NCBI GenBank assembly: GCA_003054655.1
Contig: QAYZ01000013.1
Location: 434,001 to 498,000 of the forward strand
Direction of reading: 5' to 3'
DNA: 64,000 bases
Origin: Spartobacteria bacterium LR76
Lineage (GTDB): Bacteria > Verrucomicrobiota > Verrucomicrobiia > Chthoniobacterales > Terrimicrobiaceae
In this document: piece after piece, positions 6,505 to 49,483 of the stretch
Numbering within the stretch: position 1 is the first letter of the stretch
Layout of the letters: each line of letters begins with the position of its first letter
Program-made: the position numbers and the translations under genes
The notes under the pieces: model-generated
The model's input: only the letters and a program-made list of their open reading frames with translations
The model's database searches: none
Told to the model about the DNA's origin: nothing

Positions 6505-8370
6505 TTAGGCTTTCAGGCTTTTGGCAGAGCGCACGCGGCGCAGGACGAGGACCGTGCCGATCGAGAGCAGGAGCAGGGTGGCGACGCTCGGCTCGGGAAC
6601 CACCGTGATCGTTCCATCCGTCAGGAAGCTCGAGGTGTCCCAGGATTGCCCCTCCGCAAGTTGAGCCCCGGAGAAGTCAAAGGTGAATCCGTTGTCCACC
6701 AAGGTGCCGGACCAGTCGAGGATATTGTAGACGGCAACCCCGGACGGCACGTACCCATCAAGGAACGACACCTTGATCACGCCACCAAGAGACAGGTCGG
6801 TAATGCCCGCGATGCTGTCGTAGCCCGAGGAACTGATGCCCAGATCGAGAGTCGAGGTAGCAGAGAGCGTGAGGCTATTGGAGATCGTCAATACACCGGC
6901 CTGCGCGCCCGCGGCCGAGAGACTAGAGGCAAAGCCGGGGCTGAGCGTCCCGTCCACCGTCACCGACCCTCCGACTGTGCCGAGACCGCCGAAGGTCGCG
7001 CCCGAGGCGACTGTGACATTGGAGCTGGTGAGCGAGGCGTCAGACTCAATGAGCAAGCTGCCCGCCGAGACCGTGGTCGTTCCGGTGTAGTTGCTGCTTC
7101 CCTGCCCCATGATGAAGGTACCATCACCCGTTTTAATTAGCGATGCGCCTGCCACGGATTCACGGATGCGGCCATTTGCACGCATGTTGACGCCAGACGC
7201 CACATCGATCGTTCCGCCACCGGCACCAAGCATGAAGCCTCGATTGCCCGTGAGTGGAGTCGAAAGCACGGAGGAAGTGAACCGAATCGTACCTCCGTCC
7301 ATGGTGAAGAAGTCGGCTACATATTCCGGCACCGATCCCGCCGATGTTCCTCCCATCGTACTGGTACCGCCGAACTCCAGAATACCTTCGGTAACGGTAA
7401 AGCCAGCGATATAGGTATTGGCTCCCGCCAAGGTCAGCGTTCCGGCACCGCTTTTTGTCAGGCGATAGGCCGTACTGTTGGCTCCGGCGATATTCTGATC
7501 CCAGATCACGTCGGCGATGGTGTTTAGTGTCGAGTCGCTGGCCAGCGTGGTTGACCCTCCGGCGGTATCGGAGAAAGTCTGTATTCCAGATCCATTGCCG
7601 CTCGCAGTACCAAACGCAACAGAACCATCGATCACAATATTGTTATAATAGGTGCGCGCGTTATCAGATACGGACTGAAGGTTCCCCCCCTTCAGCGTCA
7701 CAGTGCCGGTACCCAGCGGACCGACCGACAGATCCGATGCTCCCGAGAGGTTGGTTTTGACTGTTCCTTCCAGGAGAGTAAACCCTCCCGAGAAGGTATT
7801 GTTCGCACCCATCAGCAAGATCCCTGCACCGGTTTTCACTATGGAACCGACGCCGGTAACAGGAACCGTATCTTTGATGGTCAAGGTGACATCGGAATTC
7901 ACGACATTAAATGTCGTCGCGCCCGGGATGGCTAGAGAGAGGCTTCCACCATAGGTCTCACGTCCGATCACGACATTGCCAGTCCCGGACAAAGTTATTC
8001 CTGCGCTTTCTCCAGACAGCGTGAGAACCCTTGCCGCAGTCGCGCTCTGGCTACTATTGGGACCCAAGGTAACTTCGTTTGTGTTGGCGAAAATCAAGCT
8101 CTGGTAGGTGGCATCTGCTGCCATAGAGGAATTAGTCAGGTAGAGATTACCTGAATTATTGCCGACCCGACCTAAGAAGTAGAGATCATCTCCCACCGTA
8201 GGAGCAACATCACCGACCCAGTTGCCGGCTACTTGCAGAACGGTTCCAGTGCCAGCGTTGGCGGGATCAGTTCCCCCTCCATCCCAGGTTGTCGTAGCAG
8301 CAGGGGAATCTGGCAGACAGCCCAGGGAAATCAGGCCAAGAATGGCCGAGAGTTTTGTGGTTTTCTTCAT
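6505..8370 (-). CDS. Autotransporter-type beta-strand-repeat protein with PEP-CTERM anchor
   Basis: 621 residues: signal peptide (ILGLISLGCLPDSPAA), an opening TTWDGGGTDPANAG block, then several passenger repeats of the form 'KTGAGILLMGANNTFSGG..LLEGTV' (also LTKSGAGTLTLAGANTY and LIKTGDGTFIMGQGSSNYTG), the pattern of autotransporter-associated beta-strand repeats. The C-terminus is a PEP-CTERM sorting signal: VPEPS, a hydrophobic helix, then RRVRSAK. Such proteins are exported and anchored by an exosortase. There is no beta-barrel. The function is unknown; position within the epimerase-symporter operon suggests a surface binding or matrix role. Confidence 0.85.
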   Translation of the reverse strand: MKKTTKLSAILGLISLGCLPDSPAATTTWDGGGTDPANAGTGTVLQVAGNWVGDVAPTVGDDLYFLGRVGNNSGNLYLTNSSMAADATYQSLIFANTNEVTLGPNSSQSATAARVLTLSGESAGITLSGTGNVVIGRETYGGSLSLAIPGATTFNVVNSDVTLTIKDTVPVTGVGSIVKTGAGILLMGANNTFSGGFTLLEGTVKTNLSGASDLSVGPLGTGTVTLKGGNLQSVSDNARTYYNNIVIDGSVAFGTASGNGSGIQTFSDTAGGSTTLASDSTLNTIADVIWDQNIAGANSTAYRLTKSGAGTLTLAGANTYIAGFTVTEGILEFGGTSTMGGTSAGSVPEYVADFFTMDGGTIRFTSSVLSTPLTGNRGFMLGAGGGTIDVASGVNMRANGRIRESVAGASLIKTGDGTFIMGQGSSNYTGTTTVSAGSLLIESDASLTSSNVTVASGATFGGLGTVGGSVTVDGTLSPGFASSLSAAGAQAGVLTISNSLTLSATSTLDLGISSSGYDSIAGITDLSLGGVIKVSFLDGYVPSGVAVYNILDWSGTLVDNGFTFDFSGAQLAEGQSWDTSSFLTDGTITVVPEPSVATLLLLSIGTVLVLRRVRSAKSLKA

Positions 8371-20060: not shown

Positions 20061-21086
20061 TTAGGACAACCTCGACACGATCAACTCCTGATCGAGCGAA
20101 CCGCGTCTTGTCTCCGTGAAATCGACCCGAGGCAAGCGGCGGCGCAATGCCTCCATCAATGCCATTTGCTGACGGCAATCATCCAGACCGGGCGCGGGCG
20201 TAAAGCCTTCACGCACGGCGTCGAGAAACGCCGCGAACTCGCCGTAGGTCCCGTTGCGCTCGATGAGGTCTCCTGTCGCCTGGAAGCGCTCCGCCAGCCG
20301 ATCTTTCCGCCAGTGCTCCAGGTAGCCCTGAAACTGGCGTCCATCCGCGCCGAGAAGGCTGAGGCGCAGCGTGTGCTCCGCCGCGTGAATGCAGGCTCCC
20401 TCGCTCGTCTTGCCCGCGATGGGCTGAATGTTGAGGCGCACCTGCGTGCCGCTCTCACAGGTGCCGTCGAGGGTGAAGGCCGCCACCCCATCTCCCATCC
20501 AGGGCATTTCCCGATAAGTGATTCGCACCTCGTGGTAGGGGCTTCGCGCCAGGAAGCGCACGGCATCGATGGCATGGATGGCGGTCGTCGAAAAATCCGC
20601 GTCCCGCCGGTCAAACCGGGTCATCTCGTAATTGATCTGCTGGATGGCGTCGGGCGGCAGATGAGTCTCGAGGATGTCATGCGTCCGCACGACCACGGGC
20701 ATGTAGCGCCGGTTGAATGCCACCTGGTTCGGCACCTTTCCGGCATCCGCCGCTGCCCGCATGCGATCGAGCTCCGCCGTCCCAAGCCCGGGAGGCTTCT
20801 CCAAAAACAAAGGAATGCCCTGGCGAAGGACATCGACTGCCAGATCACAGGTGACGGACGTTGGCACGATGAGGCAGATCGCATCCGGGGCCTCCCGGTC
20901 GATCATGGTCTGGATGTCCGTATAGGCCCGCTCGAAGCCGAATCTCGCCCGGTACGTCTCCGCCAGCGCTTCATTCAGGTCGCAACACGCGGCAAGGTGA
21001 ATGCCGCCCTCGCTGGCGGCCTTTTGCTGCGCCGGGCCATGAACATCGCTCGAGTGCCCTCCGCAGCCAATGGTGCAAAGTTTCAT
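20061..21086 (-). CDS. Gfo/Idh/MocA-family oxidoreductase
   Basis: 341 residues. N-terminal Rossmann motif (KLCTIGCGGHSSDVHG), then the family's EKP motif in IPLFLEKPPGLG, which carries the conserved catalytic-site Lys, and a C-terminal alpha/beta domain. Members oxidise or reduce sugars or sugar derivatives with NAD(P). Start and stop overlap the neighbouring lyase-like gene in ATGA fashion, so the two are translationally coupled. In this locus it probably handles a monosaccharide released from the polymer attacked by the exported neighbour. Confidence 0.88.
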   Translation of the reverse strand: MKLCTIGCGGHSSDVHGPAQQKAASEGGIHLAACCDLNEALAETYRARFGFERAYTDIQTMIDREAPDAICLIVPTSVTCDLAVDVLRQGIPLFLEKPPGLGTAELDRMRAAADAGKVPNQVAFNRRYMPVVVRTHDILETHLPPDAIQQINYEMTRFDRRDADFSTTAIHAIDAVRFLARSPYHEVRITYREMPWMGDGVAAFTLDGTCESGTQVRLNIQPIAGKTSEGACIHAAEHTLRLSLLGADGRQFQGYLEHWRKDRLAERFQATGDLIERNGTYGEFAAFLDAVREGFTPAPGLDDCRQQMALMEALRRRLPRVDFTETRRGSLDQELIVSRLS

Positions 21087-23935
21087 GATGGATTGACTGG
21101 TGTGGAAACCCGCATACGAAAGGTCAGCCGCCCTCCTCCCGGCTGGACGGGAACGACGAGCCGCTTCACCGAGGGAGACACGGAATCCTCAAGACGCCCA
21201 GGCGCACTCTCGGGCCACTCTATAGTGACGCTTCCCTGGTCGGTGACAAACACCAGGCGATGCGGCGTTTCCAGCGTCACACGAGCAGCAGCGAGGCGGG
21301 TGAGAATCGGGAGGTTCACAAAGCACTCCTGCGGAGCAGTCAATGTCTTCGCTGTCACCGAGAGATCGAGGCCGTTCTCCACAAAGGCGTAGTCCCAGGT
21401 GAACGCCGCCAGCATGGGCGAGCCTGTGCGCGAGATGATGGAAAACTCCCGCCCCTCCGCGCCTTCCTGGATTTTTGCCCGGTCCGAACCGCTGGCAAAG
21501 AACGCTCCCTTGTCCGATTTGCCAAAGACACAGGAGTAGGTGAGCTGCTCGGGCCGCGTGATCTCCTTGGCCGAGGCGGGAAGATGGCCCGCCTCCGCGT
21601 CGCCCACCGGATGCATCGAGGCCAGAAACGATCCCGTCGCCGGAGTCCAAAGCACGGACGGCCCCCCGCCGAAGTGACCGACCAGTTTGCGCTGCGCCCC
21701 GATGACGTCGTAAAAAGCCAGTCCGTAAATCCCGCCGCGGTTCCACGCCAGCAGCCCCGGCAACTGCCATGTCTGGTCCTTTTGCGTGAAGGGAAGCGCC
21801 GCCGGCTGGGCGATGACGCCGGTGCCGTAGGCCTGGGCCAGGGCGGGAAGCCATTGACCGCCGCCTTCAAATTCCGCACCGCCCCAGATCACCCCCTGGC
21901 GGATCGTGCGGGCGATCCAGTCCGGCGTATTGGCAACGAACGAGGTAATACCCGCCGCCCCGATGCCCTCCGCAGGCTCCTTCTCCAGGTAGTAGCGTGA
22001 AGCGCCCAGGGGAAAATCCTCCCGGGAGATGAATTCTCCGGGATATCCGCTGAGGCAGAACATCGCCGCGGTGCGGCAGTTCAACGCCGTAGGCGAGTGC
22101 AGCCTGCCATCCGGCTGCGGGAGCCAGAAGAAGCACTTGAAACGGAGGTTCTTTTCGATCCCCAGTTTCATCGCCTCGGCCAGCGCCTCATCGCGTCTTG
22201 GCATGGCCTTGTAGTGGTTGTAGCAGGCGACGAGGCTGTAGAGATTGAGCCGGTCGTAGTTCCCATCCGGCCCATATTCCTCGAGGAAGTATCCCGCCGG
22301 ATGCTGGCCAAACTTCGAGTTCGGTCCATACGCGCCGCCGAGATAGGCCTTCATCCCTCGCTCAAAGTAGGACAGAAACCTCTTCTCCCCGGTCGCGAGA
22401 TACGTTTCGAGATGTGCCTTGAGAACATGCGCCCACTGGTTGGATTCGTACGCCTGATGGTCGGCGGCCTTGTCCGCGATGGCCATGAGGCCCTGCCGCC
22501 AGATCTCTCCCGCGTCGGCGGGCAGGGCTTCCTTGACCGACAGATAGGCCTGGGCCAGTCCGTCGTAGATGAAGAAAGTGTGAGTCAACGGATACGGCAG
22601 TTCCATCATCCGGCCGTCGCGGATCAGGTCGTCGCCCTGCAGGGTGGACAGGTGGAAAAACGCGGCCATGATGGCGCGCTTCAAAATCTGCGGATCGCGA
22701 TAGGCCGCGTTCAGCTTGCCCGGGAAGGCATGGAGCGCGGCAAAGCTCGCCGAGTCATAGAGCGAGAGAAACCGACCCGGGAACGGCAGGAAGTTCATCC
22801 ACGACTCCGCTTCGCTTCCATCCGTGGGCAATCCCGTGGGTGCCGGAATGCCGAAGTAGGGCTTCGCTGGATCGAGGTTTTCATTCTGGGCGCGCATCAG
22901 GCTGATCACGCCATTCAGGCCGCCGTATTTGCCAAAGGGCAGCACCTCCACCGATGGCGAGGCCAGATCGGCAGGCACCTCGGTCGGCCAGTTAAGACGC
23001 GGCTCCTGGTCCAGCGTGGGGGCCGACGCCACCATCCAGTCGCGAGCCCGCGCCTGCAAGGGACCGGCCACCCGTACTCCGTGGCTCTCGACCGTGCCGC
23101 CCTGAAGCCTTTCCGCCATCTCAGGCGTCGGGCAGAGCAGCCCCGGAGCGCCTTCAAAATCGATGGCTCCATCAAATCCCTGCGGCAGCACGACCCGCAC
23201 CACCTGGCCGGCCGGGGCCGGATCGAGCAGGATGCGGCCCTTTCTCTGTCCGCCGCTCAAGACCTCCGCCCGGGCGAGAGGCTTCCCATCGCGGGACTCA
23301 AGGGCGATACCGGCGGGCGAACCAGCCTCCACCCCGAGAAGCAGCTTGCGCGATGAGGGCGGAACCCACAAATAAGCGGGCCGGGGTGTCGTCGCGGAGA
23401 CGCCGAGGGCCATCTCGCCGCGCACTCCCCACGCCTCCGTCGGCGGGAGCCGCAACTCGACAAGATCACCCTGTCTCCCTCCGGAAAAGGAAATACGCCA
23501 TATCCCGGCGGCGCCCTCCGGCACCAGCAGTCCGCGCGTCTCCATGCCGCTCTCCTGCGCACTGAAATCCTCCACCGCGACCAGGTTGCCCGCCGGGTCA
23601 AAGACCCGCGCCAGGGCGGTCGGCAGGTAGGGTTCCTGCGAAGAGACTGTCGTCTGGCGGGTCACCAGGATGCGCTTGGGTCCGCCTGCGGGAAACTCCG
23701 CCAGCATCCCGAACCCGCGCACTCCGCCGCCAATGGTGGCGATGCGCGCCGCCTGGCCGATGGGGAAGGCCAGCTTGTCAACCGGTGCGGCGGCGGAGCC
23801 GGCGGCTTTGCCATCCGTATACACGCTCGGGCCGCCATCCTCCCTTGTCTTGAGCACATCAGCGGCATACAGGCCGGATGCCGGGAGCAGGCTGGCCGCC
23901 ACGACAGCCGCACCACCTCGCAGGAGAGAGATCAC
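21083..23935 (-). CDS. Large exported protein, probable alpha-toroid polysaccharide lyase/hydrolase-like
   Basis: I start it at the GTG at 23935, which overlaps the upstream stop as GTGA and is followed directly by a signal peptide (LLRGGAAVVAASLLPASGLYAA); 950 residues. The first third is beta-rich. The middle has helical pairs typical of (alpha/alpha) toroids (LKRAIMAAFFHLSTLQGDD, YESNQWAHVLKAHLETYLATGEKRFLSYFERGM, DGNYDRLNLYSLVACYNHY). The C-terminal third is again beta-rich with GGIYGLAFYDVIG and SFLASMHPVGD. That order resembles alginate/heparin-lyase-like enzymes, but I recognise no diagnostic catalytic motif, so family and substrate stay open. Confidence 0.55.
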   Translation of the reverse strand: MISLLRGGAAVVAASLLPASGLYAADVLKTREDGGPSVYTDGKAAGSAAAPVDKLAFPIGQAARIATIGGGVRGFGMLAEFPAGGPKRILVTRQTTVSSQEPYLPTALARVFDPAGNLVAVEDFSAQESGMETRGLLVPEGAAGIWRISFSGGRQGDLVELRLPPTEAWGVRGEMALGVSATTPRPAYLWVPPSSRKLLLGVEAGSPAGIALESRDGKPLARAEVLSGGQRKGRILLDPAPAGQVVRVVLPQGFDGAIDFEGAPGLLCPTPEMAERLQGGTVESHGVRVAGPLQARARDWMVASAPTLDQEPRLNWPTEVPADLASPSVEVLPFGKYGGLNGVISLMRAQNENLDPAKPYFGIPAPTGLPTDGSEAESWMNFLPFPGRFLSLYDSASFAALHAFPGKLNAAYRDPQILKRAIMAAFFHLSTLQGDDLIRDGRMMELPYPLTHTFFIYDGLAQAYLSVKEALPADAGEIWRQGLMAIADKAADHQAYESNQWAHVLKAHLETYLATGEKRFLSYFERGMKAYLGGAYGPNSKFGQHPAGYFLEEYGPDGNYDRLNLYSLVACYNHYKAMPRRDEALAEAMKLGIEKNLRFKCFFWLPQPDGRLHSPTALNCRTAAMFCLSGYPGEFISREDFPLGASRYYLEKEPAEGIGAAGITSFVANTPDWIARTIRQGVIWGGAEFEGGGQWLPALAQAYGTGVIAQPAALPFTQKDQTWQLPGLLAWNRGGIYGLAFYDVIGAQRKLVGHFGGGPSVLWTPATGSFLASMHPVGDAEAGHLPASAKEITRPEQLTYSCVFGKSDKGAFFASGSDRAKIQEGAEGREFSIISRTGSPMLAAFTWDYAFVENGLDLSVTAKTLTAPQECFVNLPILTRLAAARVTLETPHRLVFVTDQGSVTIEWPESAPGRLEDSVSPSVKRLVVPVQPGGGRLTFRMRVSTPVNPS

Positions 23936-24495
23936 AGGGACTCCAGCTTGAGATCGTCGATCCAAAGCACGCTGTCTGCCAGCGGTGTGGCGTCGCCGCC
24001 CTTGCCCGAGATCATGAATCCCGTCACCTTGTCCCAACCTGCGGGATCGCGCACAGCGTGAAAGTCCGAGAGCGGCAGAACGACCTGCTTCCATCCCGTC
24101 CAGTCCACTGCGAGCTTGTGAAAATAATACTTCTGCCCCTTGGACTGCCCTTCACTATCGGAATAGACCCAGAAGTTCAGGATCTGGCCATTAGCCTTGT
24201 CGGCATAGATCCAGAGGCTGAGTGCCTGGTAGGGGCTCCAGTCCAGCGGCGCGTTCTTCATGATGGCCCATGGGCGCTGCGATACCGACCAGCGGGCAGA
24301 GGCATTGCCTTCCTTGATCTTTCCGGCAGCGGTTTCCTTGGTAAACGGAACCCGGTCGGGCTGGTCTATCGCCGCCACCCATTGAAACGGCTGGGTTTCA
24401 AAAGAGTCTATCTTGAGAGTGTCTGCCCGCGAGGTTCCAGCGAGGACTGCGAGGGCGAAGGTTCCAGCGAGGAGGGAGGAAAGAGAGATTTTCAT
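23932..24495 (-). CDS. Exported jelly-roll carbohydrate-binding-like protein
   Basis: 187 residues with a signal peptide (LLAGTFALAVLAGTSRA). The domain opens with DSFET and continues ALSLWIYADKANGQILNFWVYSD, WKQVVLPLSDFHAVRDPAGWDKVTGFMIS and ends SVLWIDDLKLE, a pattern of CBM11/CIA30-like beta-sandwiches. These bind glycans and have no catalysis of their own. It directly precedes and overlaps the large lyase-like gene (GTGA), suggesting a binding subunit that was encoded separately. Confidence 0.65.
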   Translation of the reverse strand: MKISLSSLLAGTFALAVLAGTSRADTLKIDSFETQPFQWVAAIDQPDRVPFTKETAAGKIKEGNASARWSVSQRPWAIMKNAPLDWSPYQALSLWIYADKANGQILNFWVYSDSEGQSKGQKYYFHKLAVDWTGWKQVVLPLSDFHAVRDPAGWDKVTGFMISGKGGDATPLADSVLWIDDLKLESL

Positions 24496-24527
24496 GAGAG
24501 GGAATAGGCTGAGATTTGAAGAGAAAT

Positions 24528-27215
24528 TCAGGGATAAGTTTCGCGGGCCAGAGCGATGCCGCTGCCCTGCTTGGTTTCATCCACATTTCCGGTCTTGTAG
24601 ATGGAGTCGATGTATCCCTTGTAAAGTCGGCCATCCGTGCCCGCGATGCTTTCCACATGCCCGTCGAGGAAGGCCATGTTGACCTTGCCGGAGTGCCTCA
24701 TGGGCATGTACGGATTGGACCCCCAGTTGATCGACCAGCTTTCCCACATCAACGGGGTCTTGGAGTGATCGGAAAAATACAGGTCCATACGGACCGCATT
24801 ATTTCCCGTGTAGCTCAGGTAATTATCCTTCGCGATAAAGTTATAGTTTGCCGTGGTGGTCTCCTTCCGGATGGCCGACATCGGGCACTTTTCAGTCTTC
24901 ACCTCGATATACTTCCCCTTGGAAGTGAAAACATAAGGTCCCGCGCCTCCCTGATAGTACTGCCTCAGCAGGCTGATCCCGGAAAAGTTATGGCCGTTCT
25001 CCGAATCAGGATCGGTCGAGGTTACGCCGCGCGGCAAGGGCAGTCCGTCGCGATCCGCCCGATACTGACTGTAGGCAACTGCCAGGGTTCGAAGGTTCTG
25101 GAGGCAAAGGATGGAAAATCCCTTCTGCCGGAGATTCTGCATCGCAGGCAGGATCAGCGCGGCAAGCAATGCGATCACCGCCACCGCGGCCAGCACCTCC
25201 ATAAGGGTAAAGCCGTTTACCTTGCGAAAGCCGAAGGCGAGACTCCGTCCGTTACTGGCCGACGTCATCCTCATCTTGCACAAACCTAGCACGCCCACGG
25301 CAACCAGCAGCCAAATAGTGGACGGCTCCGGCACTGCCACGACCAGGTTGATCGAATCAGGCCCGTAAACAAGGTAACTGCCGCTGTAGGATTCAAGCCC
25401 GGTGCCAATCGTTAACCCCGAGGACAATCCGCTCGCGGTGAGCGTCGTCCCGCTGTCCGAGAAGAAGGAAAAGAGCGTGTAGGTTCCCTCCGTCAGCCCG
25501 CCGAGATTGGTGAAATTGACGACATTGCCGTTGAGCACCAGATCGCCCAGGGTGTAGTTCCACATCGCCACGGAATCGCTGGTTCCCGGAGCGCCCAGAT
25601 CGAAGGAAAACGCCGCCCCGGACTCGAGGGAAATCACTGCGGCGGATGTGCCAGCACCGTTGAACCGGATCTGGCCGATGCCCTCGCCCGGTGCAAGGGT
25701 GGCACCGGATTTCACCAGCACCGTTCCCGCAGCGCCGGGAGCAATGATACCCGTACCGCCCAGGGTGGCGCCGCTTTCCACCGACACACTGCCCGTGCCG
25801 GTCGCCGACCCGCTCGTATTAGCCACGAGCAACGTCCCGGCGGAAACCACCGTGCCTCCATCATAAGTATTGCCGGTCGATTTGCTCAGCCGCACTTTTC
25901 CGGTGGGAGCCTGGGTCATGTAAACCGCCGCATTTTGATTTGCGGACGCCGCCGTATCGACCTGCCGAAAGGTGCCGTTGACCGTCACTCCCACCGAGTT
26001 CGTGCCATCGTCGAGCAGCGAGGCGAAATCCGTGGTCGCACCCGCGTTCAGCGTGATCAGGTTCACCTGGCCGGCCGCCGCGTCGTTGAGCAGGATGCCC
26101 TCCGACTGCGAGAATGTTGCGGTGCCGGACGTGTGAATGCCGCCGATCGTATCCTTGCCGCCGCCGCTGTTCTGCGTGATGCGGGTCACATTGAACGTCG
26201 TGGCCGTGTTGACCAAAAGATTACCCTGAGCACCCGCCGCCGAGGTCGCTCCTAGCTGGATGCGACCGTTGCTCAGGGTCGGGGTGGACGAAAAGATGTA
26301 GGATGAACTGCCCGATGCCTCTTCCGGCACCAGTTGGAGGCCCTGCGACTGCATGCCCGTGAGGTTGATCGTTCCAAATATCCACGTCCGTGCATTGCCC
26401 CCCACCCGGAGCTGCTGGTTGTTCATGGCTCCGGTGATGCTGCCGGTGAAGGTCGTCGAGAAGTTGTTTGTCGTCGACTTGTAGGAGCCGGAATAAAAGC
26501 CGGTAAAGCCCGTGGGACTGTTGAACACGATGTCATTCGAGATCGTGTCTGCGGTGTAGAAAACCGCTGAAGCACCCTGGATCTTGAGTGTACCAGTTCC
26601 CAATGACCCGTTGTTATAGACGCCGAGGTTGCCGGAGTTAACCGTCACCCCTCCATCGATGCTGTTGCTCGCGTAAAGCCAGACGTGCCCGCCTCCCGTA
26701 ACGGTCAATCCATATGATCCCGCTCCGTCCGAAATGCTGCCTGTCACCTTGAGCGCATTGGCCGTGGGTGTCGATGTGTTGCTCCAGACTGCATCTGCGC
26801 CCAGAAGAATGTTTGGCGCTATGGTCACGGCCGATGTCGTGGTCTTCGTTATCAAACCCGAGGTAAGGGTAATGGTCGGAGACCCTGTTCCGCTGACGAT
26901 CGATATCGCAGTGGATCCATTAAAGGTCAGGGAATTGACCGCATAATCCACACCCCCAAGACTCGGACTGCCCGAGGTGAAGGCTGAGCCAAAGGTGATG
27001 TCATCCACGCTGGCCGGGAGGGTGTTCGTATTCCAGTTATTAGCCGTTCCCCACAGGGCGTTGGCACCTCCGCCATCCCAGGTCACTGAGGAGGCGTTTA
27101 GGGATTGAGCCATTAGCGCAATGATGCATGCAGCCAGAGAAGCTGGCTTAAGCACTGCCGCGACTGGGGATTTCGTCAAACGGCAACGATATGGAGGCGT
27201 TAGGGGAAACTGCAT
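24528..27215 (-). CDS. Fusion: beta-strand-repeat PEP-CTERM protein joined to a type II pseudopilin
   Basis: 895 residues from the ATG at 27215. Residues to about 625 are an exported passenger: signal peptide region, VTWDGGGANALWGTANNWNT opening, and repeats such as VRLSKSTGNTYDGGTVVSAGTLLV. A complete PEP-CTERM follows at about 625-649 (VPEPSTIW, hydrophobic helix, CKMRM). Instead of a stop, the frame continues at Met650 into a full pseudopilin: leader ending VNG, FTLMEVLAAVAVIALLAAL (Glu at +5), and a C-terminal HSGKVNMAFLDGHVES block. It could be a genuine fusion, two genes with internal initiation at 25268, or a lost stop codon. Regulated probably with the divergent LacI gene. Confidence 0.75.
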   Translation of the reverse strand: MQFPLTPPYRCRLTKSPVAAVLKPASLAACIIALMAQSLNASSVTWDGGGANALWGTANNWNTNTLPASVDDITFGSAFTSGSPSLGGVDYAVNSLTFNGSTAISIVSGTGSPTITLTSGLITKTTTSAVTIAPNILLGADAVWSNTSTPTANALKVTGSISDGAGSYGLTVTGGGHVWLYASNSIDGGVTVNSGNLGVYNNGSLGTGTLKIQGASAVFYTADTISNDIVFNSPTGFTGFYSGSYKSTTNNFSTTFTGSITGAMNNQQLRVGGNARTWIFGTINLTGMQSQGLQLVPEEASGSSSYIFSSTPTLSNGRIQLGATSAAGAQGNLLVNTATTFNVTRITQNSGGGKDTIGGIHTSGTATFSQSEGILLNDAAAGQVNLITLNAGATTDFASLLDDGTNSVGVTVNGTFRQVDTAASANQNAAVYMTQAPTGKVRLSKSTGNTYDGGTVVSAGTLLVANTSGSATGTGSVSVESGATLGGTGIIAPGAAGTVLVKSGATLAPGEGIGQIRFNGAGTSAAVISLESGAAFSFDLGAPGTSDSVAMWNYTLGDLVLNGNVVNFTNLGGLTEGTYTLFSFFSDSGTTLTASGLSSGLTIGTGLESYSGSYLVYGPDSINLVVAVPEPSTIWLLVAVGVLGLCKMRMTSASNGRSLAFGFRKVNGFTLMEVLAAVAVIALLAALILPAMQNLRQKGFSILCLQNLRTLAVAYSQYRADRDGLPLPRGVTSTDPDSENGHNFSGISLLRQYYQGGAGPYVFTSKGKYIEVKTEKCPMSAIRKETTTANYNFIAKDNYLSYTGNNAVRMDLYFSDHSKTPLMWESWSINWGSNPYMPMRHSGKVNMAFLDGHVESIAGTDGRLYKGYIDSIYKTGNVDETKQGSGIALARETYP

Positions 27216-27261
27216 GGGGCGAGTCTCCCGGCAAACAAAGGACTTGGCAAACAGCGCATCA

Positions 27262-27283
27262 CGCATCACGATGCGTAACGCAT
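27262..27283. promoter_or_regulatory. Overlapping palindromes at the LacI start, probable operators
   Basis: CGCATCACGATGCG (27262-27275) and ATGCGTAACGCAT (27271-27283) overlap each other and the second runs into the ATG of the LacI-family gene. They sit in the 66-base divergent gap between that gene and the PEP-CTERM/pseudopilin gene, so one repressor could control both directions. Confidence 0.5.
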
Positions 27284-28301
27284 GCCTAACCAACGGGCCA
27301 TCGCCAGGGCATTGGGGATCAACCAATCCACCGTCTCGCGCGCCTTGCGCGGGGACCGATCCATCCCGGCGGAGACGAGGGCGCTGATCGAGGCGGAGGT
27401 GGAAAAGCAGGCTTACCGGCCCAATGCTTATGTTTCCTCGTTAATGAATCAGATCCGCGCGGGGCGTCCCCTGCGGGATAGAAGCTGCGTCGCCCTGCTG
27501 ATCGATGCCGCCGCTCCGGACGATTGGCCCACCCTCCATGTCTACCAGGAGTACCGGCAGGGCATTCTCCAGCGCGCCGACGAACTGGGCTTTTACACGG
27601 AGACTTTCTGCCTGCACGCTCCAAAGATGTCCCCGAGCCGCATCGACTCGATCCTTTTCTCCCGCGGCATCAAGGCGATTATATTGACCGCTCCCTTCCT
27701 GTCCCTGAAACAGAGGATTTCCTTCCAGTGGGAGCGCTATGCCAGCGCGACCACCGGCTATTCCTGGCCGATCGCGACAGACCGGGTGGCGCACGACCAC
27801 CATGCCAACGTAATGCTGGCCTATCGCAGCCTGATTGCCCGCGGTTACCGGAGAATCAGCCTTTGCCTGCCCCGGCACAATCTCTCGGACCAGCCCTCCC
27901 GATGGCTGGGAGGCTTCGCCCAGTGCGAGCACGAATATTTTGGAGGGCAGCGCACGCCGGTCTTTTACGGAAACCCCGACGACACCTCATCGCAGGATTT
28001 TCTAAAATGGCTCAAGCAAACGCGGCCCGAGGCACTCCTCACCCTCATCGGCCATGAGATGGTCTGGCTGGATGCGCTGAAGATCAAAGTCCCCGACAAG
28101 CTCTCCCTCGTCTGTCTGGTTCGTCCCACGGAGCCATTCTACGCCGGTGTCGACGAGCCCAATGTGGAGCTGGGGCGCATGACCCTGGAAACCGTCGCCT
28201 CAAAGATTCTGCACAACCAGTCTGGCCTGCCGGAGAATCCCCGCCTCACCCTCATCTCCGGAACCTGGCGCGATGGCGCATCCTGCCCGGCCCGGCGCTA
28301 G
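27282..28301 (+). CDS. LacI-family transcriptional regulator
   Basis: 339 residues. N-terminal LacI helix-turn-helix: NQRAIARALGINQSTVSRALRGDRSIPAETRALIE, followed by a YRPNAYVSSLMNQIR hinge. The sensor domain is a periplasmic-binding-like fold (VALLIDAAAPDD, QGILQRADELGFYTE, GIKAIILTAP). It is divergent from the fusion gene, overlaps probable operators at its own start, and converges with an alpha/beta hydrolase (4-base overlap at the stops). Likely controls its divergent neighbour and possibly the fucosidase downstream; inducer unknown. Confidence 0.9.
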   Translation: MPNQRAIARALGINQSTVSRALRGDRSIPAETRALIEAEVEKQAYRPNAYVSSLMNQIRAGRPLRDRSCVALLIDAAAPDDWPTLHVYQEYRQGILQRADELGFYTETFCLHAPKMSPSRIDSILFSRGIKAIILTAPFLSLKQRISFQWERYASATTGYSWPIATDRVAHDHHANVMLAYRSLIARGYRRISLCLPRHNLSDQPSRWLGGFAQCEHEYFGGQRTPVFYGNPDDTSSQDFLKWLKQTRPEALLTLIGHEMVWLDALKIKVPDKLSLVCLVRPTEPFYAGVDEPNVELGRMTLETVASKILHNQSGLPENPRLTLISGTWRDGASCPARR

Positions 28302-29191: not shown

Positions 29192-30439
29192 ATGAAATCC
29201 CCGACAACTCCTTCTCACTTCAGTTGGTTCAACGAATCCCGCTACGGGATGTTCATCCATTGGGGCGCATATGCAGTCGCCGCCCGCGGCGAATGGGTGC
29301 GCAACCGCGAGCGCATCTCGCGGGAGGATTATCAGCGCCTTTACGTGGAGAATTTCCATGCGGAAAACTACAATCCGAAAGCCTGGGCGGAACTCGCCAA
29401 AGAGGCGGGCATGGGCTACGCGGTGCTCACCGCCCGGCATCATGACGGGTTCGCCCTTTGGCCCACGCAGCAAAGTGATTTCCACGCCGGGCACCTCGGT
29501 CCGAAACGCGACCTCGTCGGCGAGTTCGTCGAGGCGTTTCGCTCTGCCGGCCTGAAGGTCGGCCTGTACTATTCTCCCGCCGACTGGTCGCACCCGGACT
29601 ACCCGGGCGCGTATTTCCGCGACTGGCCCGGAGTGAACGACTGGGCCAGCGAGGAGGCCCGCCAGCGCTTCATCGCCTACTATCGCGCCCAGCTCGTCGA
29701 GCTGATGACCAACTACGGCAAGATCGACTACCTCTGGTACGACGGCTGCATCCCGGACAATCTGCAAAGCCCGGAGGTCAACGAACATCTCCTCCAGATC
29801 CAGCCGCATCTCCTGATCAACGAACGAAATGGCGCTCCCTCGCATGTCGTGATCTGCGAGCAGGCCATACGCCCGCCCGCGCAAGACACCTTGTGGGAAG
29901 CCTGTATGACGCTGAATGACAACTGGGGCTGGCATGCTGGCGACACCCAGTGGAAGAATGCCAAGGAAGTCATCAAGATGCTCTGCGAGACCGCCACGGG
30001 CGGGGGCAACCTCCTGCTCAATGTCGGCCCAAAGCCGGACGGAACGATCCCGGAGGAATCCGCCGTCATCCTGAAGGAGGCCGGTGCCTGGCTCCGCCGC
30101 AACCGCGAGTCGATCCGCAATACCGACCGCTCCGCCTTTGCCTGGAACAACTGGGGGCGCGTCACCGTGCGTGGCAGCCAGGTCTTCCTGCACCTCCGCA
30201 ACAGCACTGGCACCGACCTTTGCTGGGCGGAACCGAAGAACAAGGTGCTTTCCGCTAAGTGGCTCGCCACCGGGGAAGCGATCGAGTTCGAGCAGGATGC
30301 CGAGCGCATCATCTTGCGAAATCTCCCCCTGCCTCTGCCCGACTCCATCGCGACCACCATCGTCCTCGACCTCGAGGGAACTCCCGAGCCAATCACCCAA
30401 ACGACAACCTTCTGGATTCCAGGCGAGCCCGCCCACTAA
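29192..30439 (+). CDS. GH29 alpha-L-fucosidase
   Basis: 415 residues from the ATG at 29192; the frame is open far upstream but that region is antisense to the hydrolase gene. Family landmarks: RYGMFIHWGAYAV, AVLTARHHDGFALWPT, VGLYYSPADW, the nucleophile Asp in IDYLWYDG, and GGNLLLNVGPKPDGTIP. GH29 enzymes release L-fucose with retention. No signal peptide, so it probably acts in the cytoplasm on imported oligosaccharides. It is followed by a GH31 glycosidase with its own promoter. Confidence 0.92.
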   Translation: MKSPTTPSHFSWFNESRYGMFIHWGAYAVAARGEWVRNRERISREDYQRLYVENFHAENYNPKAWAELAKEAGMGYAVLTARHHDGFALWPTQQSDFHAGHLGPKRDLVGEFVEAFRSAGLKVGLYYSPADWSHPDYPGAYFRDWPGVNDWASEEARQRFIAYYRAQLVELMTNYGKIDYLWYDGCIPDNLQSPEVNEHLLQIQPHLLINERNGAPSHVVICEQAIRPPAQDTLWEACMTLNDNWGWHAGDTQWKNAKEVIKMLCETATGGGNLLLNVGPKPDGTIPEESAVILKEAGAWLRRNRESIRNTDRSAFAWNNWGRVTVRGSQVFLHLRNSTGTDLCWAEPKNKVLSAKWLATGEAIEFEQDAERIILRNLPLPLPDSIATTIVLDLEGTPEPITQTTTFWIPGEPAH

Positions 30440-30573: not shown

Positions 30574-32946
30574 ATGCACTTCCATAAATACCCCTATATT
30601 TCGAATTTCGAGTTTGCCTCGTCCGATTCCAAAGGAAACCTCCAGACCAGCCTCGGCTCGTTCAATCTCAAAGTCCGCGCCTCTCAAGGCGGCATCTTTC
30701 ACCTCGGCGTCTCTGGCAAAGGGTGGAAGGTCAATGATTCACAGGCGGAGTTGAATTTTCAACCCGACAGCACAACGGGCGGCCCCAAGCTTGAAATCAA
30801 AAGCAACCGCCTCGTCCTGCGCGACTCCGATGGCGAGGTGCTGCTCGAGTCAGCTCCCAAGCGTTTGTTCGGCCAGTGCGGTGAAGCTTCGATCTTCGAA
30901 TTCGTGAAGGAGAAGGGAGATGCCTTCTACGGTATGGGCGAAAAGTGGACCGGGTTGGAACACTCGGAAAAGACCACGAAATTCTGGAATACTGATGTCT
31001 GGGGCGACTTCAACGCGGAGGCCTACATCAATGGCAAACCGGCCCCCGATCCCGTCTACGTTTCCATCCCGTATCTCATCATTCGCCGCCGCAACCGCTA
31101 CATTGGCCTGCTGCTGGACAACCCGCATTCCACGTTCATTTCCACCGGGTTCAAGGTGGCGATCGCCGAGCAGATGGACGTGGATGCCGGCGCAGAGGCT
31201 CTGGCTGAGGAGTTGCTTACGGCGATGCCCGATGGTCGCATCCATCTCGGGGCGGAATCCGGCCAGCCCAATCTCTTCATCCTTGTCGGGCCGACCCTGC
31301 CGGAGCTGACCCGCAAGTTTCAAAACCTCGTGGGCACCACACCGCGTCCGCCGGCCTGGGCGCTCGGCTATCACCAGTGCCGCTGGGGATATGAATCGGC
31401 ACGCGACCTCCTCGATCTCGACGCCAATTTCACCAAGCACGAGATTCCAGCCGACGGTCTCTGGCTCGATATTGACTACATGCGCGGCTATCGCGTCTTC
31501 ACTTTCGACGAAAAGCATTTCCCCGATCCCTCGGCAGCGATCGCCAAGCTGAATGCCAAGGGCCGCAAGGTCATTCCCATCATCGACCCGGGCGTGAAAT
31601 GGGAAAAGGGCTACGACGTCTACGAGCGCGGCAGAAAAGCCGACGCTTATTGCAAGAACCCGCAGGGTCTCGAGTACATCGGTCTCGTCTGGCCGGGGCA
31701 GACCGTGTTCCCCGATTTCTCGCTTCCGTCTGCTCGCGCATGGTGGTCGAAGGAAGTCGCCAGCTTCGCCAGCCCCGGCATCCATGGCGCATGGCTCGAC
31801 ATGAACGACCCGTCTACCGGGCCGGCCGATAACGAGCAGATGTGCTTCGACCATGGCAAAAAAGGCCACGAGACCTATCACAACCAGTATGCCTTTGGCA
31901 TGGCACAGGCCTCGCGCGAGGGTTTTCTCAAGGCGCATCCTGACCAGCGCCCCTTCCTGCTTTGCCGCTCCGGGTCGACAGGTTCCGGACGCCACACCGC
32001 CATCTGGACTGGTGACAACTACAGCAACTATCACCATCTCAAAAGCTGCATCTCCACCACGCTGAATCTCGCCCTTTCCGGCATTCCGTTCAACGGCCCC
32101 GACGCCGCTGGCTTCGGCGGCGACACAACGCCCGAGCTGATTCAGGACTGGTACAAGGCCGGGTTCCTGTTCCCCGTCATGCGCAACCACAGCATGAAGG
32201 ACACACGCAAGCAGGAGCCATGGATGTTTGGCTCCTCGGTGTTGAAGGTACTGCGCAAGTACGTCCGTCTGCGCTATCGCCTGCGCCCCTATCTTTACCA
32301 GCTCTTCATCGGCAATGAGCTTGAGGGCGAGGCGATCCTGCGACCGCTCTTCTACGACTTTGCGGACTCCAAGGCGCTGCCCCTCGGCAAGATCGACGAC
32401 CAGTTCCTCGTCGGCCCCTCGATCCTCCAGGCACCCTTCGTCCAGGAAAAGCAGGCCGAGCGGGAAGTCGTCCTGCCGGGCCGCACCCGATGGTTTGACA
32501 TTTCCACGGGCCAGTGGATCGACGGCAACCGTCGTATCACCGTGAAGGCCGACCGCGAAAACACGCCGCTCTACATCCGCGACGCCTCGATCCTCCCGCT
32601 CGCCCGCCTCGCTTCGGCGGACAACGCCTTCGATGGCAGCAAGGTCGACTTCCACGTCTTCCTCTCCCGCACTGGCAGCGCCGGCACCGAGTATGAGTTT
32701 GATGACGGCCTCTCCTTTGCCTATGCCAAGGGTGCCTATACCCGCGTGGCCGTCGAAGCCAAGCGGAGCCGCAACACCCTCCGCATCTCGACGGAGACCC
32801 TGCACGACGGAGCTGGCGTTCCGGACTTCACCGTGACGACGACATCCGATGTCGCTGCCGTCGAAATCAACGGCAAGGCCGCCCGCAAGGTGAAGGCCCA
32901 GGGCGTTCCGCTCGGCAACTACAAGACCCAGACCTGGGCGCTCTAG
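30574..32946 (+). CDS. GH31 alpha-glucosidase/alpha-xylosidase-type glycosidase
   Basis: 790 residues without a signal peptide. Galactose-mutarotase-like N-domain with the typical FYGMGEKWTGLEH segment, then the catalytic barrel: GYHQCRWGYES, ADGLWLDIDYMRGY, nucleophile Asp in HGAWLDMNDPS, acid/base Asp in TAIWTGDNYS, and GIPFNGPDAAGFGG. A beta-sandwich C-domain follows. These motifs are those of GH31 alpha-glucosidases; alpha-xylosidase or other specificity cannot be excluded. It is a single gene closed by a strong terminator, with its own candidate palindromic promoter. Confidence 0.92.
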   Translation: MHFHKYPYISNFEFASSDSKGNLQTSLGSFNLKVRASQGGIFHLGVSGKGWKVNDSQAELNFQPDSTTGGPKLEIKSNRLVLRDSDGEVLLESAPKRLFGQCGEASIFEFVKEKGDAFYGMGEKWTGLEHSEKTTKFWNTDVWGDFNAEAYINGKPAPDPVYVSIPYLIIRRRNRYIGLLLDNPHSTFISTGFKVAIAEQMDVDAGAEALAEELLTAMPDGRIHLGAESGQPNLFILVGPTLPELTRKFQNLVGTTPRPPAWALGYHQCRWGYESARDLLDLDANFTKHEIPADGLWLDIDYMRGYRVFTFDEKHFPDPSAAIAKLNAKGRKVIPIIDPGVKWEKGYDVYERGRKADAYCKNPQGLEYIGLVWPGQTVFPDFSLPSARAWWSKEVASFASPGIHGAWLDMNDPSTGPADNEQMCFDHGKKGHETYHNQYAFGMAQASREGFLKAHPDQRPFLLCRSGSTGSGRHTAIWTGDNYSNYHHLKSCISTTLNLALSGIPFNGPDAAGFGGDTTPELIQDWYKAGFLFPVMRNHSMKDTRKQEPWMFGSSVLKVLRKYVRLRYRLRPYLYQLFIGNELEGEAILRPLFYDFADSKALPLGKIDDQFLVGPSILQAPFVQEKQAEREVVLPGRTRWFDISTGQWIDGNRRITVKADRENTPLYIRDASILPLARLASADNAFDGSKVDFHVFLSRTGSAGTEYEFDDGLSFAYAKGAYTRVAVEAKRSRNTLRISTETLHDGAGVPDFTVTTTSDVAAVEINGKAARKVKAQGVPLGNYKTQTWAL

Positions 32947-47289: not shown

Positions 47290-47967
47290 ATGGAAATCAC
47301 CTGCCTGCAACATGTCGCCTTTGAGGCACCCGCCGGGATGGAAATCTGGCTGGCCGGCAAGGGTGTCGCTCTGCGTAAATTTCTCGTTTCCGAACAAGAA
47401 TTACCCGATCCCCCGGCCTGTCATGCCGTCATCGTGATGGGCGGCCCGATGAACATCTACCAGCATCGAGACCACCCATGGCTGGTGAAAGAGAAACGCT
47501 TCCTTCGCGAATGCGTGGATCGCGGCATCCCTGTCCTCGGCGTATGCCTCGGCGCACAACTGCTCGCTGATGCGCTCGGCGCTCGAGTTTTCCAGAATGC
47601 CCAGCGCGAGATCGGCTGGTTCCCTGTCGAGCCAACAGACGAGATCCGCCAGATGTTTCCGACTCTGGCCGGAAATCCCACCGTCCTCCATTGGCACGGC
47701 GATACGTTTGAACTGCCCAACGGCGCAATCCGTGTCGCCCGGAGCGAAGCCTGCGCCGAACAGGGATTCTACATCCCCGGCACCTGTCTCGGCCTGCAAT
47801 TTCACGTCGAATCAACGCCAGATTCCGTGCGCAGCCTGCTCACGCATTGCTCCGACGAGCTGGTCGCGGCTCCCTATGTGCAAAGCGCCGCGGAGATCGA
47901 GGCTGGACTTGCCAGAGCCCGGTTCACGCCATGGGAGCCTCTCTTCGAGGACATCCTGCGAATCTAG
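47290..47967 (+). CDS. Type 1 glutamine amidotransferase-like protein
   Basis: 225 residues from ATG 47290, starting at the recognisable MEITCLQHVAFEAPAG; longer frames overlap the MocR gene. The class I GATase triad is visible: Cys in PVLGVCLGAQLLADALG, and His and Glu in GLQFHVESTPDSVRS. It resembles stand-alone GATase proteins (GuaA N-domain-like) that hydrolyse gamma-glutamyl bonds or transfer amide nitrogen. It probably forms an operon with the MocR regulator. The substrate is not known. Stops overlap the pseudopilin gene on the other strand. Confidence 0.85.
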   Translation: MEITCLQHVAFEAPAGMEIWLAGKGVALRKFLVSEQELPDPPACHAVIVMGGPMNIYQHRDHPWLVKEKRFLRECVDRGIPVLGVCLGAQLLADALGARVFQNAQREIGWFPVEPTDEIRQMFPTLAGNPTVLHWHGDTFELPNGAIRVARSEACAEQGFYIPGTCLGLQFHVESTPDSVRSLLTHCSDELVAAPYVQSAAEIEAGLARARFTPWEPLFEDILRI

Positions 47968-48728
47968 CCGCCGGGCAGCCAGGGACGCTCTCCCCGATCG
48001 AGCATGCCTTTAACCTCCGCCGCCTCCATGGTCTGCACATGACCGTCGGCAAAAAGGTAATTGGCTGATCCATTGAGCCTCGAACCGATGCGCTCGCCAG
48101 TGCGATGCCGGTCAACAGCGACATCCGTCGTCAGCGCCGGCCAGGTCGTCCAGTTCGCACAGTGCGCGTGATCCCAGGTCCGGCTGACCGGGCGGTTGCT
48201 GATAAAGGCCAGCATGAGCCGCGAGGGATGCGGGAGGTTTTGAAAACGTCCGTAGACCTCGGAATCAAATACCATGTCGTTCAGGAGATAGCTCGTCGCA
48301 TTCATCTGAAGGATCTGCCGCTGGCGCGATCTCTCATCCGCCGGACACACCCGCACCTCATCGACATTATCCAGATAGTCGGCCAGCAGGTAGATCCAGC
48401 TATACTCGATCGAGCTCAGCCACTTCCCGTTGATCTTGAGGCGGGAATCTCCCGTACTATGGGAGGTCACAGGCAATACACCATCGTGGTCCCCGGCATA
48501 CAGCAGGATGGCCTGGCCGATCTGGCGCAGGTTGGAGGCGCACCTGGCGCGATTCGCCGCCATGGCGCCCGATGATATGACGGGTACGGCGAGGCAAAAC
48601 AGGATCGCCACTACACCGACAACCGTGAGTAACTCCACCAAAGTGAAGCCCCCGACGAGCCGCCTCGCCCGTGAGCCGGAAACCGGCCCGCACACGATGT
48701 GCGGACCGGCCTCTCCACTGTGGATCAA
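47964..48728 (-). CDS. Prepilin-leader (type II pseudopilin-like) protein
   Basis: 254 residues from a TTG at 48728 that overlaps the stop of the upstream PEP-CTERM gene as TTGA; no ATG is available before the leader. The long leader ends RLVGG, then FTLVELLTVVGVVAILFCLAV with Glu at +5, NRARCASNLRQIGQAILLYAGDHDGVLP, and a C-terminal GSANYLFADGHVQTM motif. Same family as the protein at 12546. Coupling to the PEP-CTERM protein suggests the two act together at the cell surface. Function unknown. Confidence 0.78.
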   Translation of the reverse strand: MIHSGEAGPHIVCGPVSGSRARRLVGGFTLVELLTVVGVVAILFCLAVPVISSGAMAANRARCASNLRQIGQAILLYAGDHDGVLPVTSHSTGDSRLKINGKWLSSIEYSWIYLLADYLDNVDEVRVCPADERSRQRQILQMNATSYLLNDMVFDSEVYGRFQNLPHPSRLMLAFISNRPVSRTWDHAHCANWTTWPALTTDVAVDRHRTGERIGSRLNGSANYLFADGHVQTMEAAEVKGMLDRGERPWLPGG

Positions 48729-49483
48729 CTTACCGGCAGCACCCGCCGCCGATAAACCGCCATTCCGATCAGCAAGGCCACGCCGAGCAATACCCAGGTC
48801 CCCGGCTCGGGCACGGCCTGAAATTCATAGGTCCCGGACCCGCTGACATCGACGGGCGATTCGCCACCGATGTAGGTTCCGGTCCAGGTGAAGGTCACCG
48901 AGTAAGTCCCAGCCTCGGAGAACCACCAGTCGAGATGCTGATGTCCTCCCACGCCGAAGTCCCACGCGTTGCTGTTCTGCGTCTTTGATGCATCACTGGA
49001 GAACCAGACAAACGTGCCGACATTTGCAATCGTCTGAGAGACCGCAATCGATCCCGGTCCGGTCCACGCGGTCAGGGTCAGTGTGATGCTTCCATCCAGC
49101 CACTCGGAATCCGAACCCACCTCCTCAAGCCCAAATCCCACATTCGGGGGATAGGCCGCATTTCCCGTGCGATAGACCTGCGTTCCCGTGGAAACCCCGA
49201 GCGCCGAGGCCACGGCTGAGGACGAAACCGCCGCCTGCGTGCCGAGTTGGGCGGCCAGAGCGTCAGGCGCGAACTCTTCCTCTTCCGTCAAAGCCACGCC
49301 ATCAACCACCGCGCCTGAGCCAATATGCCAGTGCGCTCCAAACTCCGTCTCGCCCGGCGTGTATTCAACGCCAAGGTCTCCATGACCAGAGGTGTAGATA
49401 GCTTGGGCTTGAGACACTCCAGCGGAGAGAATCATTCCGGCTCCAACGAGACCGGACAACAGGGGCAGCTTGTATTTTTTCAT
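48725..49483 (-). CDS. PEP-CTERM-anchored choice-of-anchor M-like, His-rich surface protein
   Basis: 252 residues from the ATG at 49483, which is followed directly by a signal peptide (LLSGLVGAGMILSAGVSQAQA). The body has YTSGHGDLGVEY at the start, an AHWHIG pair, and HQHLDWWFSEAGTYSVTFTWTG, the layout of choice-of-anchor M / surface-anchored repeat domains that in Actinobacteria lie beside metal ABC transporters. H34, H51, H53, H181 and H183 could form a metal site. The C-terminus is VPEPGTW, a hydrophobic helix and YRRR, a PEP-CTERM signal. Next to Fur/Zur and CobW genes, a zinc-scavenging role is a reasonable inference. Confidence 0.72.
   Translation of the reverse strand: MKKYKLPLLSGLVGAGMILSAGVSQAQAIYTSGHGDLGVEYTPGETEFGAHWHIGSGAVVDGVALTEEEEFAPDALAAQLGTQAAVSSSAVASALGVSTGTQVYRTGNAAYPPNVGFGLEEVGSDSEWLDGSITLTLTAWTGPGSIAVSQTIANVGTFVWFSSDASKTQNSNAWDFGVGGHQHLDWWFSEAGTYSVTFTWTGTYIGGESPVDVSGSGTYEFQAVPEPGTWVLLGVALLIGMAVYRRRVLPVS

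Follow-up and report, generated by a model that had tools for sequence, protein, structure and literature searches.

A conserved in-frame fusion of a PEP-CTERM protein and a pseudopilin in Spartobacteria bacterium LR76, a candidate natural polyprotein

Architecture of the fused frame

In the window, a stretch of 64,000 nucleotides of contig QAYZ01000013.1 from Spartobacteria bacterium LR76 (genome G000 in our searches), a single minus-strand frame at 24528–27215 encodes a PEP-CTERM surface protein that continues into a pseudopilin. This frame, termed fusion A, consists of 895 codons and a stop, read from an ATG at 27215, and stays open upstream of that ATG to at least a TTG at 27326. An earlier inspection of the letters alone (the sequence-only reading) had reported an in-frame union of a PEP-CTERM with a complete pseudopilin here, and this observation held, its coordinates included. 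The frame opens with a signal-peptide-like region recognized by eye (amino acids (aa) 1–42, 27090–27215), which is basic, then hydrophobic, and ends with LNAS. The passenger follows (aa 43–626, 25338–27089) and resembles an autotransporter-type β-strand repeat protein; its repeat at aa 438–464 scored below the cut-offs of both TIGR02601 (18.9 against 19.85) and PF12951 (20.9 against 27).

The PEP-CTERM signal (aa 627–646, 25278–25337) is composed of VPEP and a hydrophobic helix, which was also predicted as a helix by AlphaFold. It narrowly passed both PF07589 (aa 627–646, 21.6 bits against the Pfam cut-off of 20.7) and TIGR02595 (aa 628–645, 16.4 against the NCBIfam cut-off of 16). The basic linker behind it (aa 647–668, 25212–25277) has a net charge of +5, ends with G668 and doubles as the tail of the PEP-CTERM and the leader of the pilin. 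Two in-frame ATGs lie in this linker (25266–25274) and are possible internal starts: Met650, whose codon start at 25268 was as previously given, and Met648 at 25274, which was found in addition.

The prepilin motif passed PF07963 (aa 664–688, 21.8 against 21.2) and TIGR02532 (aa 667–689, 21.3 against 16.3). Its class III signal reads G668 followed by FTLMEVLAAVAVIALLAALILP, with Glu at +5, and the predicted cut falls between G668 and F669, so that 668 encoded residues precede it. The mature pseudopilin would comprise aa 669–895 (24531–25211), starting with FTLMEVL, and carries an H-X9-DG domain at aa 840–857 (24645–24698; TIGR04294, 24 bits against a cut-off of 19). A 44-row profile of the fusions and related pseudopilins was compared with GspG and type IV pilins of solved structure; the first residue of their mature forms, F, aligned at F669, and the match spanned the N-terminal helix. 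F669 and E673 (alignment positions 70 and 74) were invariant in the 44 rows.

Fusion A shares with the exosortase (EpsH) substrates, as described in the available text of (PMC1569441), a signal-peptide-like start, the PEP motif, the hydrophobic helix and basic residues, as well as an exosortase gene in the genome and a signal present in many copies (104 matches). It differs from them in that its signal is internal and is followed by a second domain with a sorting signal of its own; 249 residues lie behind the PEP-CTERM match. With the type II/IV H-X9-DG pseudopilins (TIGR02532 plus TIGR04294) it shares G followed by FTLMEVL, the Glu at +5, the long hydrophobic helix and the H-X9-DG domain. The difference is that its leader is predicted to be a cytoplasmic loop behind the membrane segment of another protein; as encoded, the leader is not at the N-terminus, and it would be there only if an internal start were used. 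Because both a terminal PEP-CTERM and an N-terminal leader were looked for and neither was found, fusion A is not an ordinary member of either family. The Verru_Chthon cassette (TIGR02596, TIGR02599) was also compared: fusion A gave no match to these models, and two other proteins treated below, fusion E and a separate pilin of the window, were weakly similar to protein D of the cassette, with scores (34.3 and 22) far below the cut-off of 70. No report of a PEP-CTERM and a pilin in one chain was found in the open-licence literature, as far as its available text goes. The components are known, and the new part is the architecture, its conservation and the link with pilin leaders.

Conservation and recurrence of the fusion

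Some match to fusion A was obtained in 47 of 58 genomes searched, its own included. Full-length and unbroken copies were present in G000, G001 (95% identity) and G002 (91% identity); the search contained no further members of the genus. All three copies are 895 aa long without indels, in the linker or elsewhere, and the protein sequence of the PEP motif and helix is identical among them. The dN/dS of the whole frame was approximately 0.08 and that of its halves 0.04–0.09, the pilin half being more conserved. The sequence-only reading had called for a search for the same fusion in relatives, and had named as refuting findings a stop codon in a corrected assembly or relatives in which the two parts are separate genes. 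Since the same unbroken frame occurs in G001 and G002, a sequencing or assembly error at the junction was ruled out, which also answers the concern about a hidden stop codon. Stop-codon recoding is needless as an explanation, as the frame is open under table 11. No split orthologue of A appeared among the 58 genomes or the matches listed in a survey of the order.

We then considered PEP-CTERM signals throughout G000, the one genome in which internal signals were counted. TIGR02595 gave 104 matches (E ≤ 1) among the best 150 of 174 candidates scored. In 100 of them 0–16 residues followed the match. The remaining four had 227, 229, 249 and 291 residues behind the match; these are fusions C (contig C13), E (C15), A (the window) and B (C11), in all of which the open frame runs on into a pilin leader.

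Of the four, A, B and C were found in all three species, B and C being open across the junction in each, and eight of the nine copies had no frame break. The ninth is the G000 copy of B, which shifts frame at about codon 85, counted on its homologue (C11, L109, ~8361–8364), so that a whole frame of B was seen in the sister species G001 and G002 only; a sequencing error and a real break are indistinguishable here. In the 25 further family genomes searched, sister species included, fusion E was not matched over its full length. A fifth fusion, D, occurs in G004, which belongs to another genus; its halves matched separate adjacent genes in G005, G002 and G013 with 36–54% identity.

Among the matches listed in surveys of the order (213 genomes) and of the phylum (387 genomes, a selection from a larger group), rows covering a whole query without a break came only from this genus. 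Both surveys were insensitive, with at most 22 and 12 candidates scored per genome, respectively: among the matches listed, the order survey missed C and D and the phylum survey missed E. One row of the order survey, G000:C9:457948 (query 13–107), contained no PEP or pilin motif by pattern. The phylum survey also listed a row at G472:C13 (query 10–105) with a stop-free frame of 264 aa. Long frames upstream of pilins at seven other loci (L129, L130, L132, L134, L136, L137 and L138) were long enough to suggest fusions and were dropped because, by eye, they were other-frame sequence rich in R, G and P.

PEP-CTERM and pilin genes also occur as neighbours. G000 gave 116 matches to the TIGR02532 leader model, and 15 PEP-CTERM ends were followed, no more than 400 bases further along the same strand, by a pilin leader. 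When these 116 matches were placed at random, such pairs numbered 0.59 on average and 4 at most in 1000 trials, under a crude null that ignores gene structure. Separate genes made up 11 of the 15 pairs and are thus commoner than fusions. One pair lies in the window: a choice-of-anchor M type PEP-CTERM gene (48725–49483, minus strand, PF07589 at the protein end) overlaps by the four bases TTGA (48725–48728) with a pseudopilin gene starting with TTG (47964–48728, minus strand, TIGR02532 above cut-off), which makes it an unfused counterpart of A. In G005, a homologue of C's pilin (60% identity) overlaps the preceding PEP gene by ATGA, and in a G000 pair on C2 (L175) the pilin starts within the PEP tail in a different frame. 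In-frame pairs split by a stop were also seen in further families of the order and elsewhere in the phylum. In the separate pairs displayed, the pilin generally had a start of its own, located behind the stop or overlapping it. Relatives with separate genes therefore do exist, as the homologues of D and these other tandem pairs, but not for A.

The tandem pairs resemble A in order, strand, close spacing and, in some, short overlaps, and differ from it in the stop codon or frame change that separates the two proteins. Judged from these overlaps, overlapping tandem genes are one frame change away from a fusion. We infer that A arose by such a change, as its junction holds ATGA; the arrangement would derive from a PEP-CTERM gene followed by a pseudopilin gene through loss of the intervening stop. 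The two signals would be compatible in one chain, since the basic residues that close the first can also open the second.

The surroundings of A were conserved as well. Nine window genes were tested, A among them, and had the same arrangement in G001 and G002: Gfo/Idh oxidoreductase, a 974-aa protein, a CBM11-like protein, fusion A, a LacI-family regulator, a 253-aa protein with no Pfam match, GH29, GH31 and an FAD oxidoreductase. Fusion A is the first gene of a minus-strand run and lies 66 bases from the divergent LacI-family gene (27282–28301, plus strand; PF00356, PF13377). Next downstream is the CBM11-like carbohydrate-binding protein (23932–24495, minus strand, PF03425), followed by the gene of approximately 974–1003 aa at 21083–24094 (minus strand), whose start is uncertain and which gave no Pfam match at E ≤ 0.01. 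On the plus strand lie the alpha-L-fucosidase GH29 (29192–30439, PF01120, its start chosen within a longer open frame) and the GH31 glycosidase (30574–32946, PF01055). A scan of 24300–27400 for sigma-70-type promoters found none.

These data bear on the idea that the fusions are decaying or neutral read-through products without a role. The broken copy of B and the isolation of E agree with it, as does the suggestion that rare long-tailed PEP-CTERMs may be non-functional, made in the available text of (PMC1569441). Both halves of A are under purifying selection, nearly all copies of A, B and C are free of breaks, and the synteny of A is kept; we consider decay hardly credible.

One chain or an internal start

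The sequence-only reading had allowed that the pseudopilin might start internally at 25268, and a second product translated from Met648 or Met650, alone or beside the long chain, had to be weighed. Several features of A would permit it. Both ATGs are kept in the three species and would give leaders of 19–21 aa, so that a separate pilin could be started inside A. Nine of ten separate pilins had an ATG 3–18 codons before the cut site (the tenth had only TTG and GTG, and an eleventh, that of the window, starts with TTG). No Shine-Dalgarno-like word was found at A's ATGs or at the nearest starts of the ten separate pilins; its lack in A is uninformative because the separate pilins lack one too. 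Silent sites at the junction of A were conserved in 19 of 22 codons. This was tested as a sign of selection on an internal start and rejected, since 76 of 795 windows of the gene were as high and the junction is ordinary for it. There is also no stop in A, and the passenger would read through into the pilin regardless.

Fusions B and C fit an internal start poorly. The linker of B has diverged strongly among the three species (dN 0.37–0.89, with 3–7 codons of gap) compared with its pilin (dN 0.04–0.05), and the junction frame stayed open. The stretch from PEP to the cut site of B contains no ATG in any of the three species, nor a GTG or TTG common to all of them. Fusion C has next to no linker, its PEP tail GRRIRRAA serving directly as the pilin leader; in the copy of G002 this stretch is free of ATG, GTG and TTG, and no start is shared by the three species. 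The separate pilins differ from both, nearly all of them having an ATG there. Because these linkers diverged without a start codon common to the three species, the pilins of B and C are most likely made as part of the fusion. The internal start therefore keeps some support for A, through its conserved ATGs, and as a general explanation of the fusions it is improbable.

Candidate processing and its alternatives

One PF09721 match above cut-off was obtained in each of G000 (E 1.1e-44), G001 and G002, indicating an exosortase gene. The exosortase contains the stretches AACSG, NLIRIL and FFHELAG, whose Cys, Arg and His we take to be catalytic. The prepilin peptidase (PF01478) was found at one locus, in two pieces, in each of five genomes searched, with the stretches FIDIEH and GFGDVK; two conserved Asp residues of this enzyme are named in (PMC10191384). 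With one exosortase match and one prepilin peptidase locus in each of the three genomes of the genus, both cuts would be possible. As a side observation, the two PF01478 pieces are approximately 96–98 residues apart in G000 (C9:498343–498978, L153), G001, G002, G004 and G005, as if a domain had been inserted.

According to (PMC1569441), a PEP-CTERM is followed by a transmembrane (TM) helix and a basic cytoplasmic anchor, and according to (PMC10191384), prepilin peptidase cleaves behind a G or A at the cytoplasmic face, positive charge keeping the leader inside. The fusions are compatible with a topology that serves both enzymes: hydrophobic segments and a basic loop are in the right places, the 11 fused frames counted all have a loop net charge between +3 and +9, and the AlphaFold model, although weak, shows helix, break and long helix.

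We propose that the chain would be exported by its N-terminal signal peptide until the PEP-CTERM helix halts in the inner membrane, its basic tail facing the cytoplasm. The same basic loop would then act as the pseudopilin leader, and the pilin helix would re-enter the membrane with the second domain outside, giving a hairpin of an out-to-in TM segment, a basic loop and an in-to-out TM segment. Prepilin peptidase could cut at the inner face after G668 and free a normal pseudopilin, and exosortase could cut at the outer face at PEP and release or transfer the passenger. An ordered form, prepilin peptidase first and exosortase second, would be a natural version of the model because the PEP signal would stand almost at the chain end after the prepilin cut. 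The two products would arise in a 1:1 ratio, controlled through a sugar locus that has a LacI-type regulator. The sequence-only reading had expected both enzymes to process one product into two surface proteins, and the analysis supports this in part. On balance, and by a modest preference, we favour the view that one polypeptide is a natural polyprotein of two cell-surface proteins cut by these two enzymes.

Several points weigh against this view. The PEP-CTERM of A covers only model positions 1–17 of 24, and the tail behind it, CKMRM, is less strongly basic than such clusters usually are. In the available text of (PMC1569441), PEP-CTERM is placed virtually always near the C-terminus, and the very few long-tailed ones may be non-functional. 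The mean pLDDT of the AlphaFold model was 64.8, which is weak; helix 72–122 of the model is confident and the head is weak, and Foldseek gave no match for this model at E ≤ 0.001. To these are added the frame change in B, the isolation of E and the conserved ATGs of A. In addition, possible starts precede the cut site in D (ATG at 30, TTG at 29 and GTG at 26 residues) and in E (several TTG, the nearest at 16 residues), so that D and E add to the recurrence of the fusion more than to the argument for one chain. The support for A is drawn from three species of one genus.

Another form of processing was also considered, in which prepilin peptidase alone cuts and the PEP-CTERM stays behind to anchor the passenger in the membrane, or in which exosortase has to wait for the prepilin cut. 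This cut would leave the passenger of A ending with a TM segment and a 22-aa basic tail, nearer to a normal PEP-CTERM end, and the short linker of C would yield the standard-looking tail GRRIRRAA. Two further frames, described below, join a LacI-family regulator to a pilin with no PEP-CTERM match upstream, and in these only a prepilin cut could separate the parts. On the other side, the three species have kept A's PEP motif and helix unchanged, as if the signal were still used; this argument is weak, since a plain anchor could be conserved too and the other fusions were found by the same motif. We regard processing by prepilin peptidase only as a minority possibility, slightly ahead of the internal start.

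It is also conceivable that the uncut two-helix chain works by itself, for example as a pseudopilus subunit with a large β-strand passenger anchored beside it. The constant length of A in three species and Rosetta-stone reasoning for two neighbours acting together would suit such a chain. Prepilins, however, need processing before filament assembly, as stated in the accessible part of (PMC10191384), and the site G668-F669 is intact, with F669 and E673 invariant in the alignment. We consider an uncut functional chain very improbable, a little less so than decay.

Returning to the polyprotein, its gene lies beside glycosidases and a LacI-type regulator. In another verrucomicrobium, a pseudopilin gene was among the few over-expressed on alginate, and the pulG-like pseudopilin of the alginate cluster had 67 homologues in that genome, according to the part of (PMC13274419) available. 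The passenger and the pseudopilin would probably share a role in polysaccharide handling. The fusions would link two expanded, poorly understood surface protein families of the phylum as likely partners, here in a sugar-degradation locus. In the one genome fully surveyed they form a conserved set in which an internal PEP-CTERM is always joined to a pilin leader. The available text of (PMC1569441) describes PEP-CTERM as a terminal signal and sets the few internal cases aside as possibly non-functional. These frames offer a direct handle on the question of exosortase action at a signal that is not terminal, and on what length and complexity of leader prepilin peptidase accepts.

The two LacI-type frames suggest a broader reading. 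A LacI-family regulator was in frame with a pseudopilin at L094:1338–3098 (minus strand; G005:C57; 586 aa) and at L131:2308–4035 (plus strand; G095:C145; 576 aa). The two come from two different families of the order and are 47% identical over 569 residues; one has an ATG giving a four-residue leader, and the other has only a GTG near the site. Prepilin peptidase might, as a tentative idea that we think less probable than its failure, be a general maturation protease for encoded polyproteins, the pilin leader standing behind any protein with a cytoplasm-facing end. Such a reading would take in, equally tentatively, the PEP-CTERM proteins (the five fusions A–E) and the LacI-type regulator in two families. 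If true, the prepilin cut would tie surface display, or the release of a membrane-tethered regulator, to pilin maturation.

Three other composite frames were observed. At L135:2433–3548 (plus strand; G073:C62), by eye, a short secreted-protein start leads, in one frame, to a pilin similar to C's, perhaps a fusion born of a deletion. At L034:1318–4905 (plus strand; G006:C14), a PEP-CTERM protein is in frame with a sialate O-acetylesterase-like domain (SASA), which opens with its own hydrophobic segment. Finally, at L119:2187–3314 (minus strand; G005:C139), two PEP-CTERM stretches stand in one frame: a signal-like segment comes first with a PEP-CTERM directly after it, and another hydrophobic segment then precedes a complete PEP-CTERM protein.

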